Positions 38,411-44,270 of a DNA stretch of 64,000 bases are shown here, piece by piece. Source of the DNA: Chitinophagales bacterium (lineage in GTDB: Bacteria; Bacteroidota; Bacteroidia; Chitinophagales; LD1); assembly GCA_016787045.1 (NCBI GenBank), contig JAEUVA010000034.1, positions 1 through 64,000 on the forward strand. The letters run 5' to 3'. The notes under the pieces are model-generated. The model saw only the letters and a list, made by a program, of their open reading frames with translations. It did no database searches and had not been told where the DNA came from. Each line of letters opens with the position of its first letter. Position 1 is the stretch's first letter. The translations under genes and the position numbers were made by a program.

Positions 38411-41299
38411 TTATTGTTTCAAGAATCTTTCGCTCGCCACATTTCCATTGCTGGCTTTTAACTGAATAGTGTAAACGCCCTCTGAAAAATTGCCGACATT
38501 AAGTTGCATTTTACCTGTTGACAAGGTATTTATTTCCGCTACGGTTCTTCCGTGCATATCAAACACTTTGATGCTTGCAATTTCATCCCGGCTTTCAATA
38601 TAAAGCACACCGCTTGTAGGGTTTGGGTAAATACTCATCTGTGTGTTGGCTATTTCTTCTAACCCAATACATAATTCCGCTACTATAATAGAGGAACTAA
38701 CTGCCGTACATCCCACATTATCAGTAGCAGTTACTATGTACATTGTTGTACTGGATGGAGATGCAGTAATAGTTGAAGTAGTAGCTCCTGTGCTCCAGGC
38801 ATAGCTTGCTGCACCGTTGGCAATAAGCGTAATACTTTCTCCGGCACAAATGGTATCTGTACTTACATTTAGGGTAAGTGGAATTGCCGGTGGATTAGGC
38901 ACATTGATATTGCCCGATACTGTACAACCACCTTGTGAAACAGATATGGGCAACACAGCTCCGGCATTAACGGTGATAGTTACAGAATCGGCACTTGGTT
39001 TCACTAATCCTACTGCATCATACTCTACCCAATCAGTAGCTATGTCATTGGCAATAGCCCAACGCACTTGGTCAACAGTCATAACTGATGGCAGGTTCAC
39101 CGCAAAAATAGTTGCTACCTCTGGGCCTGCTGCTGCTGTGCCGGTATATACTGTAGTCCAGTTTCCCGAAGGGTATTCACGCACATACACCGTATCAATG
39201 TACCCGGGGGCGTTTGTTTCGTAAATCAACAACTGGCTGGCGGTAACAGGTGTGGTATAGCCCACTACTAAAAACTCGCGTTGATTACCGTAATCGTCCG
39301 ATGTCCAAGCGGTAACTATATCTCCATAATCCGGATAGGTGTTTGGCTCGCCAAGCAGTTGGTATGCTGACCAATTGCCGGGTGATGTGTTGTATTCTGT
39401 ACTGAATGCAATTACGGTATCTGCCCAAGCAGTATCACCTCCAAAACTGTAATTGTTTCCACCTATCGTAAAATCTATAGCCGTGTTGGCGGTGAGTGTA
39501 ATGGTGCCGTTGGTGGCATTGTTGCAAAGCAGAGTGGTAGAGGATATGGTGGGAAAAGTAACTTGCGGTTGTACTGTAAGCGAAGTATTCACAACACTAT
39601 CGCAGCCAAAATAGTTGGTATAGTTACCACTTACGGTGTATGTGCTTGCTCCAACGGTATAGGACTCGCCAAAACAAATGACTACGGTATTATTCCGCAC
39701 AGGCACATTCACATCATTTATCAATATCTCCACCGTACTATCGCAACCAAAATACTGTGTGTAATAGCCGCTGCTGTTGTAAACAATGCCATTGATGCTT
39801 ACGGTACTATCAGGGCATATTGAATAGTAGCTATATGTAACAGGCGCAGCGAAAAGCGAAACAGCTATCTGTATAATGCTATCGCAATTGTAATTGATGG
39901 TGTAGTTTCCGGCTTGTGTATATATGGAGTCGTTGTAGGTTACCGTATCGCCATAGCAGATGGTAAAATTTTTATTGATAACAGGTGCGCTGTTATTAAT
40001 CACAATAGTATCTTTTGCTACACATTCTTCGCTATCAAATGCCGTGGCAATAAAAGTGTAGTTACCAAAGTAACTCAACGCAGCACCGCATATCCACTCA
40101 TTTTCCCCCTGTACAAACCAATTGCCGGTAGTGGGTGCAGTACCGCCTGTAATTACATAACTCAGGTTATTGAGTTGCGCTTGACACGCTACAGCCGGTG
40201 TATTTATAGATATGGAAAATCCGGCACATGGATTTACTCCATTATACTCATGCGAGCCAATGTCGGCCGTATTACTACGCGTGTAATTGCGCTGATCGGT
40301 AGCCGGTGCAGCACTAGCATCCGCAGCATCAATAGCAGGGCTGTTAGCAACTAATGCGTGAGTAAAGGTGTAATGGCCGTTATCGCTCAGTGTGGTATTT
40401 ATCACACCCGATGCAGCTGCGCCATACACGTTTCCGGTGGTTACTCCGCCAATAGTTGCGCCCACGGTATCAGTAAAGATATTGTGGCCGTATGTAGAGG
40501 TAAAATTGCCAAACACGTTGTTCCCGATAAGTGCTGCAGAGTTACCTACAAAAATACAATTGCTGATATCACAAAAATTTCCGCCCTGTGTGCTTATAGC
40601 ACCACCACGGCTCGCACTATTATTATTGTAAAAGGTAGAATTTCTCACCACCATTTTTCCTCCTTGATGGTTTTTTACCGCGCCACCACCACCGCTACCA
40701 CTGGCACTCACGCTGGTATTGCCGCTAAAGGTGCAATTGACAATGCTCATAAAGCCACCATTGTTGAATGCTGCAGCACCACCTTCGCCTCCGGCATCTG
40801 TAGTAATGTTGCCGTCAAATGTACATCCGTACAAATACACAGAATCAAAATTGTTAAACACACCGCCTGCCTGATAAGAAGCGCTACCGTTGGTAAATCG
40901 GCAGTTATTCAAAATACTGGTGCCACCGCCATTGCTGCTCATCCATGCTGCTCCAAAAGAACTGTTTAACTGACTAACAAACGTAAGATTATTGAATGTA
41001 AAATGCTTGCCCACCAACGATTGCCCAAAGTTGAAATAGTAGCCGCTAAATCTTGCGCTATGATCTGCCGGTGCGTTTAGCACCAATGGCTCAAGAATAG
41101 TGGGCAGGTAATACTGCCCTCCGGTACAAAGATTAATAACATGTGGATTACTGTTGCTACTCGGAGTTGCATTGGCATCTGAAATAGCTGCGTCCAATTC
41201 TGCCTGATTACTTACCGTATAAGTATTGGCCCGCATACCTGCTGAGCAAAAACACAGCAGGAGCAAAAGCAGTTGTTTAGTAAAAGTTTGATTCATCAT
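38411..41299 (-). CDS. T9SS surface protein with parallel beta-helix domain
   Basis: The 962-residue product has a signal peptide (MNQTFTKQLLLLLLCFCSAGMRA), then a right-handed beta-helix at about residues 28-345 with typical rungs (ILNNCRFTNGSA, VYLYGCTFDGN, MSIVNCTFSGN, MVVRNSTFYNN, DISNCIFVGN) and the closing segment SPAIDAADASAAPATDQR...ADIGSHEYNG. Three GCDS/NCDS repeats follow (TICYGDTVTYNDSIYTQAGN), then a region with strand-rich EWxVxxY patterns, a PKD-like domain (CAGESITLIANGAASYAWSTG), and a type A sorting domain (IYPNPTSGVL...FLKQ). Beta-helix domains often handle polysaccharide, but no catalytic residues can be named. The promoter carries family C repeats. Confidence 0.9.
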   Translation of the reverse strand: MMNQTFTKQLLLLLLCFCSAGMRANTYTVSNQAELDAAISDANATPSSNSNPHVINLCTGGQYYLPTILEPLVLNAPADHSARFSGYYFNFGQSLVGKHFTFNNLTFVSQLNSSFGAAWMSSNGGGTSILNNCRFTNGSASYQAGGVFNNFDSVYLYGCTFDGNITTDAGGEGGAAAFNNGGFMSIVNCTFSGNTSVSASGSGGGGAVKNHQGGKMVVRNSTFYNNNSASRGGAISTQGGNFCDISNCIFVGNSAALIGNNVFGNFTSTYGHNIFTDTVGATIGGVTTGNVYGAAASGVINTTLSDNGHYTFTHALVANSPAIDAADASAAPATDQRNYTRSNTADIGSHEYNGVNPCAGFSISINTPAVACQAQLNNLSYVITGGTAPTTGNWFVQGENEWICGAALSYFGNYTFIATAFDSEECVAKDTIVINNSAPVINKNFTICYGDTVTYNDSIYTQAGNYTINYNCDSIIQIAVSLFAAPVTYSYYSICPDSTVSINGIVYNSSGYYTQYFGCDSTVEILINDVNVPVRNNTVVICFGESYTVGASTYTVSGNYTNYFGCDSVVNTSLTVQPQVTFPTISSTTLLCNNATNGTITLTANTAIDFTIGGNNYSFGGDTAWADTVIAFSTEYNTSPGNWSAYQLLGEPNTYPDYGDIVTAWTSDDYGNQREFLVVGYTTPVTASQLLIYETNAPGYIDTVYVREYPSGNWTTVYTGTAAAGPEVATIFAVNLPSVMTVDQVRWAIANDIATDWVEYDAVGLVKPSADSVTITVNAGAVLPISVSQGGCTVSGNINVPNPPAIPLTLNVSTDTICAGESITLIANGAASYAWSTGATTSTITASPSSTTMYIVTATDNVGCTAVSSSIIVAELCIGLEEIANTQMSIYPNPTSGVLYIESRDEIASIKVFDMHGRTVAEINTLSTGKMQLNVGNFSEGVYTIQLKASNGNVASERFLKQ

Positions 41300-41325: not shown

Positions 41326-41391
41326 CAAATCTACCGGTACCGGCTACGCTAACCGCATTTATGTGACGAAATACAACTGTAGAGTGATAAG
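41326..41391 (-). promoter_or_regulatory. Family C direct-repeat operator and promoter of the beta-helix gene
   Basis: TAGATTTG (41326-41333, minus) is an exact -7 match. The proximal box GTGACGAAA (41363-41371 on the plus strand) is 45 bp away and the distal box GTGATAAG (41384-41391) is 21 bp further. The stretch TTTATGTGACGAAATAC (41358-41374) recurs with two changes before the pair 3 kinase (43369-43385). Confidence 0.6.
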
Positions 41392-41400
41392 ATGCAGCAG

Positions 41401-43188
41401 CTATTTCTTTAGCGGAAAAACCAACTTAAACTGAGTACCGGCATCGGATGTAACACTAAGCACACCACGCATTTGCCTGGAAAGCTCGCTAACAATACGC
41501 ATACCCAATGAGGTTGAACTTTTAATATCGAAACCGTCTGGCAGACCCACTCCATTATCAGAATAGCAAAGCGAGCATTGACCATTCAATAAGTCGGTAA
41601 TCACAATTCGAATTTGCCCCCCGGATTTGTTGATTTGAGCATACTTGATAGAGTTAGTAATCAGTTCATTCAAAATAACACCCAGCGGAATAGAATGATC
41701 CATACTTAATTTGAAATGTGGCGGATACGCACTGCATTGAAAATCTATATGCGTTGCATTAAAAACTTGTTTCAGATGTGTATAGAGCTGCTCGATATAC
41801 TCTTCCAGATAAATGGCCGACAACGCTTCTTGCGAGTACAATTTTTGATGGATAAGTGAAATACTCTTTACCCGGTTGTGGCTTTCGCGGAGCGCAGCTA
41901 TGGCCTTTTCATCGGTAAGTGTGTTGGCCTGCAAATTGAGCAGTGATGAAACGATTTGCAAATTGTTTTTTACCCGGTGATGAATCTCCAACATCAAGGT
42001 GTCTTTTTCTTGTGCCTGCCTGTCTATCAAGGCATTTTTCTCTTGCAACTCGCGGTTGGCGTGCTCTTGCTTTTTGTGTGCGCGGATTATCAACCAAAGC
42101 AGTATTATCAAAAGCAAAAGCACAACAGATGCAGCAGCTACTATAAGACGCAGCCACCGGTTCTCGCTTGCTTTTTCGTTAGTTTCATACTTCACTTCTA
42201 ACTCGCGTTGTGCCAATTCTGCGCGTGCCTGCACATTGGCAATACTTTGCTGCCGGGTTTCATTAAAGATAGAATCGTTCCATCTATCCTGCTGTTGTTT
42301 AAACTCCAATGCTTTCTCCAACTGCTTTTTTTCTTTTGCCATATCGCTGAGCAGCCGGTATGCTTCGCAGATATATATCTTTGTTTCATACTTTGTAGCG
42401 TCTTGCAATAATCGGTAAACCAACAGTTCTGCTTCGCTCCATCGCTTTTGTTTGACCAATAATGCACACAAACTACTCAGCGGCCCCATGGCATTGATGG
42501 GCCGCTTTAGCGAATCTTGCACAGATAGGCCATCGCGCAAAAAAGATTCTGCCGTTTGGTACCGACCCAATTCTTCATAAATGTTTCCGGCACCTGTCAT
42601 CACCACTGCATATTCATAGCCGCGCTGCGCACTTTGGCCGGCATAGTTGAGCGCGCTTTGCAACATCTTCTCCGTAGAGTCTCTTTTGTTCGCATGCATA
42701 TACTCTGCAGCTAAATTGATAGCCACTAATCCTGCAAATGCAAAATTTTTCATTTGCAATGCTGCGTGTAATGCACGATGGTAATAGTGTAAGGTTTGCC
42801 TTCTATCACGACTAGCCGCAGCATACACAGTGGCAATGTTGTTGCAGGTAGATGCCGTTAGCTTGGTTTCTTTCCCTAGTTCTGCAACTCGCAACGCATC
42901 AAAATAGTACTGCAACGAGCGGTCGTAATCGCCCATATCCTGATAAAAACCGGCTATCAAAGCCAAGCAACTGGCTTGGTAGTAAGCACTTTTAGCTTTT
43001 ATAGCAAATGCAATAGCTGTATCGTAGTGCGCTAATCCTTGTATGCGTTTATTGTGAATGATGTAAAGCAACGCTTTGCTCCGATACGCATCGGCTAACA
43101 ACAAGGCAGAGCCACCGGATAGCTGTATCTCATCAATAATTAAGCGCTCTGCCTCGGCACTATCGGTAAACAAAAGTTTATACGCCAA
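41401..43188 (-). CDS. HisKA_2-type sensor histidine kinase with TPR domain (pair 3), 5' end interrupted
   Basis: The open frame (595 residues from TTG 43188) has TPR-like hairpins to about residue 330, a coiled coil, one membrane segment (LRLIVAAASVVLLLLIILLW), a HisKA_2 phospho-acceptor region (LEIHHRVKNNLQIVSSLLN) and an ATPase domain (GVILNELITNSIKYA, DNGVGLPDG). The natural gene almost certainly starts at ATG 43323, but an in-frame TGA at 43243-43245 separates a good signal peptide from the rest, and no ATG follows before the TPR region. The ORF as it stands would give a protein without export signal, placing the sensor domain on the wrong side. The partner regulator is encoded upstream (43449-44183). 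The kinase may be inactive in this strain, or the TGA may be a sequencing error. Confidence 0.8.
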   Translation of the reverse strand: MAYKLLFTDSAEAERLIIDEIQLSGGSALLLADAYRSKALLYIIHNKRIQGLAHYDTAIAFAIKAKSAYYQASCLALIAGFYQDMGDYDRSLQYYFDALRVAELGKETKLTASTCNNIATVYAAASRDRRQTLHYYHRALHAALQMKNFAFAGLVAINLAAEYMHANKRDSTEKMLQSALNYAGQSAQRGYEYAVVMTGAGNIYEELGRYQTAESFLRDGLSVQDSLKRPINAMGPLSSLCALLVKQKRWSEAELLVYRLLQDATKYETKIYICEAYRLLSDMAKEKKQLEKALEFKQQQDRWNDSIFNETRQQSIANVQARAELAQRELEVKYETNEKASENRWLRLIVAAASVVLLLLIILLWLIIRAHKKQEHANRELQEKNALIDRQAQEKDTLMLEIHHRVKNNLQIVSSLLNLQANTLTDEKAIAALRESHNRVKSISLIHQKLYSQEALSAIYLEEYIEQLYTHLKQVFNATHIDFQCSAYPPHFKLSMDHSIPLGVILNELITNSIKYAQINKSGGQIRIVITDLLNGQCSLCYSDNGVGLPDGFDIKSSTSLGMRIVSELSRQMRGVLSVTSDAGTQFKLVFPLKK

Positions 43189-43323
43189 TGCACCACTAAT
43201 GCGGGCTTTTGCGGTATCTGAGTTTGCAGCAATGAGTTGTACTCATAAATCCTCTACCGTTTGTGCATTAGAGGCACAAAACAGACAAAGCATAAAAACG
43301 GTAAGTATTTTACGGGCAGTCAT
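43189..43323 (-). pseudogene. 5' end of the pair 3 kinase gene, cut off by an in-frame TGA
   Basis: From ATG 43323 the frame reads MTARKILTVFMLCLFCASNA, a textbook signal peptide, then QTVEDL, TGA (43243-43245), and continues in the same frame with VQLIAANSDTAKAR into the TPR domain without any other break. One base substitution (for example CGA or AGA to TGA) explains it. This is the start of 41401-43188. Confidence 0.8.
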
Positions 43324-43373
43324 TTCCTAAACGTATGCAACATGCAAAAACCCAGTTGTGGTAGTTTGTTTAT

Positions 43374-43403
43374 GTGATGAAATGCAATTTGGTAGTGATG
43401 ACA
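43374..43403 (-). promoter_or_regulatory. Family C direct repeats upstream of the pair 3 kinase
   Basis: GTGATGAAA (43374-43382) and GTGATGACA (43395-43403) lie 21 bp apart, in the 125-bp spacer between regulator and kinase. A TTTG (43345-43348, minus) is 37 bp from the proximal box, a few bases short of the spacing at the other promoters. This suggests autoregulation of the pair. Confidence 0.5.
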
Positions 43404-43448: not shown

Positions 43449-44183
43449 TTATTGCAGCCGCTTAATTTTATCAAAGAGTTCATCTTTAAAATTTCTACTA
43501 AGAGGTAAATTGTGTTTTGCCAGTTTGACTTCGGTATGGCTTAGCTCGTCTATTTTAGAGAGTTGTATAATGTAACTTTTGTGTATCTGCATAAACTGCC
43601 CTTGCGGTAGATTTATCATCATTTCGCGAAATGTGGAGCGAATGATATGCTTGGCGTTTTCTGTATAAATGAAAATGTAGTTGCCATCGCTCTCTAAAAA
43701 CAGAATGTCTGCCAAACGTACTTTTACAAACCGAGTATCAGTTTTTACAAATATGCTATCCGTTAACGGCAAATTAGATTTATCGGTTTCCGCATTAACC
43801 GATGTGTTACCTGCAAAATTTGCAAGTGCTACTTCTATACTGGTAAACAAATCTTCTTGCTCAAATGGCTTTACCAAATAGCCGTTAGGTTTCAATGCAG
43901 CAGCTTGGGCAACTGTATTTTTATCGCTATGCGAAGTGATAAACACAAATGGCAATTTGTACTTCTCCAGCAATAACTTTCCTAAATCCAAACCGGTATT
44001 TGGCCCATTCAAATTGATATCTGCCAGCACTATATCTGGCAACTGTTCATCCAAAATTTTTACTGCTTCATCATAACTGTACGCTGCGGGCAATACTTGA
44101 TAACCAATGCGGCTGAGCATATCAGCCATATCCATGGCTACCAACGATTCGTCTTCTACAATCAGTATTTTAACTTCCGTCAT
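43449..44183 (-). CDS. LytTR-family response regulator (pair 3)
   Basis: The start chosen is ATG 44183 (MTEVKILIVEDESLVAMDMADML). The frame upstream to 44264 reads through the terminator of the gene before it. The 244-residue product has a receiver domain (acidic VEDE, phospho-acceptor Asp in DIVLADINLNG, VFITSHSD, and Lys in GYLVKPFEQ) of a type usually paired with HisKA_2 kinases, and a C-terminal LytTR domain (ILFLESDGNYIFIYT, FMQIHKSYIIQLSKI, LPLSRNFKDEL). The kinase follows on the same strand. Its likely targets are the family C sites at 41363-41391 and 43374-43403. Confidence 0.92.
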   Translation of the reverse strand: MTEVKILIVEDESLVAMDMADMLSRIGYQVLPAAYSYDEAVKILDEQLPDIVLADINLNGPNTGLDLGKLLLEKYKLPFVFITSHSDKNTVAQAAALKPNGYLVKPFEQEDLFTSIEVALANFAGNTSVNAETDKSNLPLTDSIFVKTDTRFVKVRLADILFLESDGNYIFIYTENAKHIIRSTFREMMINLPQGQFMQIHKSYIIQLSKIDELSHTEVKLAKHNLPLSRNFKDELFDKIKRLQ

Positions 44184-44220
44184 CACTGCAAGTAAATGAA
44201 TGATTGCCGTAAATAAAAAA

Positions 44221-44247
44221 TCCCCTGCTGCTTGCAGCAACAGGGGA
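44221..44247 (-). terminator. Terminator of the 44271-48137 gene
   Basis: TCCCCTG...CAGGGGA with inner TGC/GCA pairs, U-run on the minus strand, 23 bp after the stop. The tag here is shortened to GAGTTTTG. Confidence 0.85.
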
Positions 44248-44270
44248 TCAAAACTCAAGACCAAACTTAC

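Follow-up and report, generated by a model that had tools for sequence, protein, structure and literature searches.

The locus described here raises the question of what a stop codon is doing directly behind the signal peptide of an otherwise complete histidine kinase gene. The gene lies on the minus strand of a 64,000-nucleotide stretch of DNA from a Chitinophagales bacterium, and this whole stretch is referred to below as the window. It is present as a single copy in its genome, a 3.6-Mb draft of 51 contigs that is 99.6% complete. A sequence-only reading of the window proposed that the kinase is newly inactivated, read through, mis-sequenced, or under phase-variable selection for loss.

The interrupted kinase gene and its relatives

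From the ATG at 43323, 26 codons are followed by a TGA at 43243-43245. This 5' part of the gene (43243-43323, minus strand), which reads MTARKILTVFMLCLFCASNAQTVEDL up to the TGA, consists of the signal peptide MTARKILTVFMLCLFCASNA and six further residues (QTVEDL), and in this respect the translation bears out the sequence-only reading. The uninterrupted continuation in the same frame is also present, and it spans 613 codons rather than the 600 that had been given (41401-43242, minus strand), ending in a TAG at 41403-41401. It encodes a TPR region, one transmembrane helix read from the sequence at about 42159-42082, and the HisKA_2 and HATPase_c domains. The HisKA_2 domain (41764-41988, minus strand; Pfam E 2.9e-26), which is the dimerisation and phosphoacceptor domain (EIHHRVKNNLQIVSSLL), is intact, and its motif columns are invariant among the six aligned relatives. 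The HATPase_c domain (41407-41691, minus strand; Pfam E 8.3e-12) is intact as well, and its N box (NELITNSIKYA) and G boxes (DNGVGLP and SLGMRIV), together with the phosphoacceptor His domain, identify the protein as a HisKA_2 kinase. The statement that no ATG exists before the TPR domain holds because the first in-frame ATG past the TGA, codon 130 at 42936, sits inside the TPR_12 match, which starts at residue 93 of the post-stop frame (~42966 in the window). In-frame TTG codons are present earlier than this ATG, the first of them at 43188.

A full-length kinase orthologue was not found in any of the 17 other genomes of the genus. Four species of the sister genus in the same family carry an orthologue with 50-52% identity, and a fifth relative was found in the wider order. 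Additionally, an alignment-based scan of genome contigs recovered two further full-length relatives (L097 and L108, 38-41% identity); a scan of the contigs with the single kinase protein as the query gave no match. The four closest orthologues have a homologous ATG, a similar signal peptide, which opens with MTAR in two of them as it does here, and matching residues downstream. Because these features are shared by the four sister-genus orthologues, the ATG at 43323 is not a chance upstream ATG with the true start elsewhere, and this possibility was ruled out.

The check that the earlier reading had suggested, inspection of the same codon in relatives, gave a sense codon in all seven. The codons aligned to the TGA are AGA (three relatives), GGT (two), CGG and AAG, so that the residue at this position is Arg, Lys or Gly, that is, basic or glycine. 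The frame is disrupted relative to seven open relatives, as in a nonsense pseudogene, and because all seven are open at the site the stop is, on this alignment, private to the source genome among the genomes compared. The TGA splits the signal peptide from the kinase here, whereas the two are continuous in the four close relatives; this continuity is a trait of the orthologous group and not of all HisKA_2 kinases.

Decoding of the TGA and age of the lesion

TGA is an ordinary stop in this genome. It terminates 12 of 102 ORFs in the region covered by the count (164 kb of the same contig) and RF2 is encoded above the curated cut-off, and a change of the code to TGA as a sense codon was rejected. 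A search of the genome for SelB returned only translation-factor relatives below the cut-off. ARAGORN, applied to the loci of 38 tRNA matches, gave no anticodon reading UGA and no UCA-anticodon tRNA, and a suppressor tRNA is unsupported among the tRNAs found. RNA folding around the TGA was no better than that of shuffled sequences (z of 0.10, -0.70 and -0.01) and gives no sign of a programmed readthrough structure. As the searches yielded neither SelB nor a tRNA that reads UGA, and no structure was seen behind the TGA, a selenoprotein was also rejected. A repeat search gave one 11-bp two-copy repeat, which does not lie at the TGA, and no inverted repeats, and repeat-mediated switching of the TGA was discarded. 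The mechanism behind the proposed phase-variable loss is thus unsupported, because there is no repeat tract or invertible element at the TGA; repeated loss of the circuit is at most weakly suggested, by a different lesion in a sister-genus species that is described below.

Several further features were observed apart from the kinase. ARAGORN reported a 'tRNA-Stop (tta)' at G000:C36:3597-3684 (L065:1178-1265) that would read UAA and not UGA; it looks like a damaged copy of the adjoining tRNA-Leu (UAA), and its acceptor stem looks broken. At G000:C1:54147-54444 (L080, L060), two tRNA-like copies lie beside a tRNA-Ala (GGC), and ARAGORN gives them a four-base anticodon, 'agca'. Two distinct TPR adenylate/guanylate cyclase genes of G006, a genome from this genus, carry one in-frame TAA each (L016:1963-1965 and L026:1936-1938); in both, the stop lies in the TPR region and the cyclase domain follows it in the same frame.

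No second stop is found in the kinase frame, though 5.0% of the one-step substitutions there would create one. Tajima relative-rate tests with four close orthologues and three outgroups were all non-significant (chi-square <= 1.4), and all of the catalytic motifs are kept, as judged from Pfam and from the alignment of six relatives. The gene shows neither relaxed constraint nor further lesions, which are expected of old pseudogenes and are not required of new ones. Since there is no rise in rate and no second stop, the lesion is therefore a very recent event, a base-call error, or one behind which protein is still made.

Protein would still be made if the TGA were leaky. In such functional readthrough, decoding by near-cognate tRNA-Trp would throttle the kinase, the full-length protein would be produced at a low level, and the arrangement would be under selection. 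The fully conserved downstream frame is consistent with this. UGA is leaky in several bacteria, and in-frame stops under purifying selection have been described (PMC7918605). However, a gene inactivated only recently would show such a conserved frame too. A study by Belinky et al. in 2021 (PMC7918605) relied on in-frame stops in constrained prokaryotic genes that at least two genomes share at one position, whereas the kinase stop is kept in none of the seven relatives, unlike that of a conserved stop-codon readthrough gene. With Sec machinery, suppressor tRNA and recoding structure missing as well, the proposal of readthrough found no positive support and we regard it as improbable. Protein could also arise by restart at a downstream TTG such as that at 43188, which opens a 595-aa ORF containing every recognised domain and would yield a cytoplasmic kinase that lacks the signal peptide. 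The relatives, however, start with an ATG and an N terminus that resembles an export signal, and a TPR sensor without the signal peptide would not leave the cytoplasm; a further ATG, which overlaps the TGA, belongs to a different frame and soon runs into a stop. We regard restart as very improbable.

A base-call or consensus error, or the base of a minority strain if the assembly is metagenome-derived, would leave the true gene intact. In favor of such an error, only one codon is affected, the gene is otherwise free of decay, and the genome is a draft of 51 contigs. The site is outside any homopolymer or repeat, however. In addition, 164 kb of this contig were scanned for genes split by in-frame stops, and no further case was recognised; the scan needs coding-like pieces of at least 20 codons and is blind to frameshifts. 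Those split pairs from the scan that were tested by Pfam are distinct neighbouring genes. These results suggest that the contig is not error-prone. In drafts with good coverage, substitution errors in the consensus are also less common than true nonsense alleles, and an error is considered rather unlikely.

Regulator, secreted protein and LytTR-like element

Everything at the locus except the kinase frame is intact. The locus has a conserved gene order, in which the response regulator is followed by the kinase and the kinase by the type IX-secreted protein, and the regulator and the kinase are adjacent in this order in all seven relatives. The partner response regulator (43449-44183, minus strand), which has receiver and LytTR domains according to Pfam, lies directly upstream of the kinase; its ORF extends over 43449-44264 and the start was set at the ATG at 44183 by homology. 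The putative target (38411-41299, minus strand) is a 962-aa protein with a signal peptide and a type IX secretion C-terminal domain (Por_Secre_tail in Pfam). Orthologues are found in the same place in the sister-genus genomes, and the identity to the counterparts in G023 and G024 is 38%.

A 33-bp LytTR-like element, TCATCACTACCAAATTGCATTTCATCACATAAA, is located between the regulator and the kinase (43369-43401, minus strand), 45 bp upstream of the kinase ATG. A second copy (41358-41390, minus strand) lies past the end of the kinase gene, where it precedes the secreted-protein gene by 58 bp, and is followed by TAGATTTG, a TAnnTTTG-like box. LytTR sites have been described as 9-bp direct repeats with 12-bp spacers and a 21-bp period (PMC6193735). 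The half-sites of the element are likewise direct repeats at 21 bp, so that it has the spacing of a LytTR-regulated promoter, in which two direct repeats ~21 bp apart lie on the same helix face upstream of a gene. The copies were located with the pattern TYRTCAC-N8-TGYANTTSRTNMCATAAA, allowing up to two mismatches. Exactly two matches per genome were obtained, both at the locus, in all five genomes that carry it; the pattern was derived from these loci, and its presence there is by construction while the absence of further copies in each genome is not. The reversed-pattern control gave no matches and neither did three other genomes of the family. In three more distant relatives (L036, L097 and L108) no element was found at up to four mismatches. 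The sister-genus genomes have similar distances from element to start codon, and all of those with the locus carry the TAnnTTTG-like box in the secreted-protein promoter. From its spacing and distribution, the element appears to be a putative site of the LytTR regulator and to form a seemingly private regulon of one locus. A looser pattern, TCAC-N17-TCACATAAA with one mismatch, was not enriched genome-wide (11 matches versus 14 in the reversed control) and was dropped.

Another TAnnTTTG-like box (TACGTTTA, window positions 43323-43340) stops about four bases short of the kinase ATG, and the kinase mRNA may therefore have almost no leader. Looser TAnnTTTG-like matches occur at similar places before the kinase start in relatives.

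In G020, a member of the sister genus, the secreted-protein gene is frameshifted inside the signal peptide (L191 / L189, G020:C8, minus strand, near 191650); behind the frameshift, ~1,250 codons are open. The regulator, the kinase and both elements of this genome are intact, and the secreted-protein gene is intact in the other three sister-genus species. Parts of the circuit are thus broken in two of five species, or two among fifteen genes. These two broken parts may hint at repeated loss of the secreted output, although the numbers are too few and draft errors could give both.

Proposed circuit and known systems

The most probable reading is that a real nonsense substitution has recently hit the gene of an ordinary histidine kinase that senses in the periplasm. 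The lesion lies in the sole copy of the gene at a codon that is sense in seven relatives, and this counts in favor of a recent nonsense allele, as do the intact motifs, the unaccelerated rate, and the intact regulator, elements and target. Against it, a single assembled base compared with relatives that are only ~50% identical does not tell mutation from error, and an intact downstream frame is also expected from functional low-level readthrough. Among the earlier proposals, new inactivation fits best with a private TGA, the lack of a second lesion or acceleration, and a regulator and two cis sites that are intact.

From the gene order, domains and sites, we infer how the circuit would normally work, including the direction of the regulatory effect. 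The exported TPR domain would sense something in the periplasm and the kinase would phosphorylate the LytTR regulator, which would act at both elements and thereby control the kinase gene and the secreted protein. With the TGA in place, translation from the ATG at 43323 would yield a 26-residue signal-peptide fragment and stop. No downstream start would restore export of the TPR sensor, so that a normally placed kinase is presumably not made. The other parts, namely the LytTR regulator with its two putative sites and the gene for the secreted target protein, are still in place, and the circuit is probably without phosphorylation input in this strain. We give little credence to a different view, in which the TGA throttles a LytTR circuit confined to one locus and is tolerated or selected for, either because rare readthrough supplies a little kinase or because loss is repeatedly favored owing to the cost of the secreted surface protein. 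If this were true, the kinase stop and the target frameshift in G020 would be parallel ways to silence the same output.

As a recent nonsense allele, the lesion is ordinary and is relevant mainly to annotation, as automatic callers will either miss the kinase gene or place its start at a TTG and so leave out the signal peptide. The locus itself seems to encode a two-component circuit of the LytTR type, whose single dedicated element is used exactly twice per genome, apparently at the kinase gene and at the gene for the type IX-secreted protein. It lends itself as a compact model for testing how Bacteroidota control a surface protein, together with what is probably a natural kinase-off variant, and the conserved single-locus LytTR-like element is the part worth following.

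Our literature searches on natural nonsense alleles of sensor kinases and on circuits of LytTR regulators, TPR kinases and type IX secretion found no paper on this type of locus. The kinase gene resembles natural nonsense alleles of two-component sensor kinases (strain-level pseudogenes) in having one early stop in an otherwise intact gene, in that the stop is private to one genome, and in that the partner regulator is kept. Unlike those, it is known from the sequence of a draft genome from the Bacteroidota. As in the cases of Belinky et al. 2021 (PMC7918605), the in-frame stop is flanked by conserved coding sequence, but it is found in one genome only. The regulatory part of the locus is comparable to HdrRM/BrsRM autoregulation in S. 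mutans (PMC6193735), where a LytTR regulator is likewise found beside a direct repeat with a 21-bp period at its own locus. In contrast to HdrRM/BrsRM, the locus has a TPR/HisKA_2 histidine kinase instead of the membrane inhibitor, the sequence of the repeat differs, and a second putative site precedes the gene for a type IX-secreted protein.
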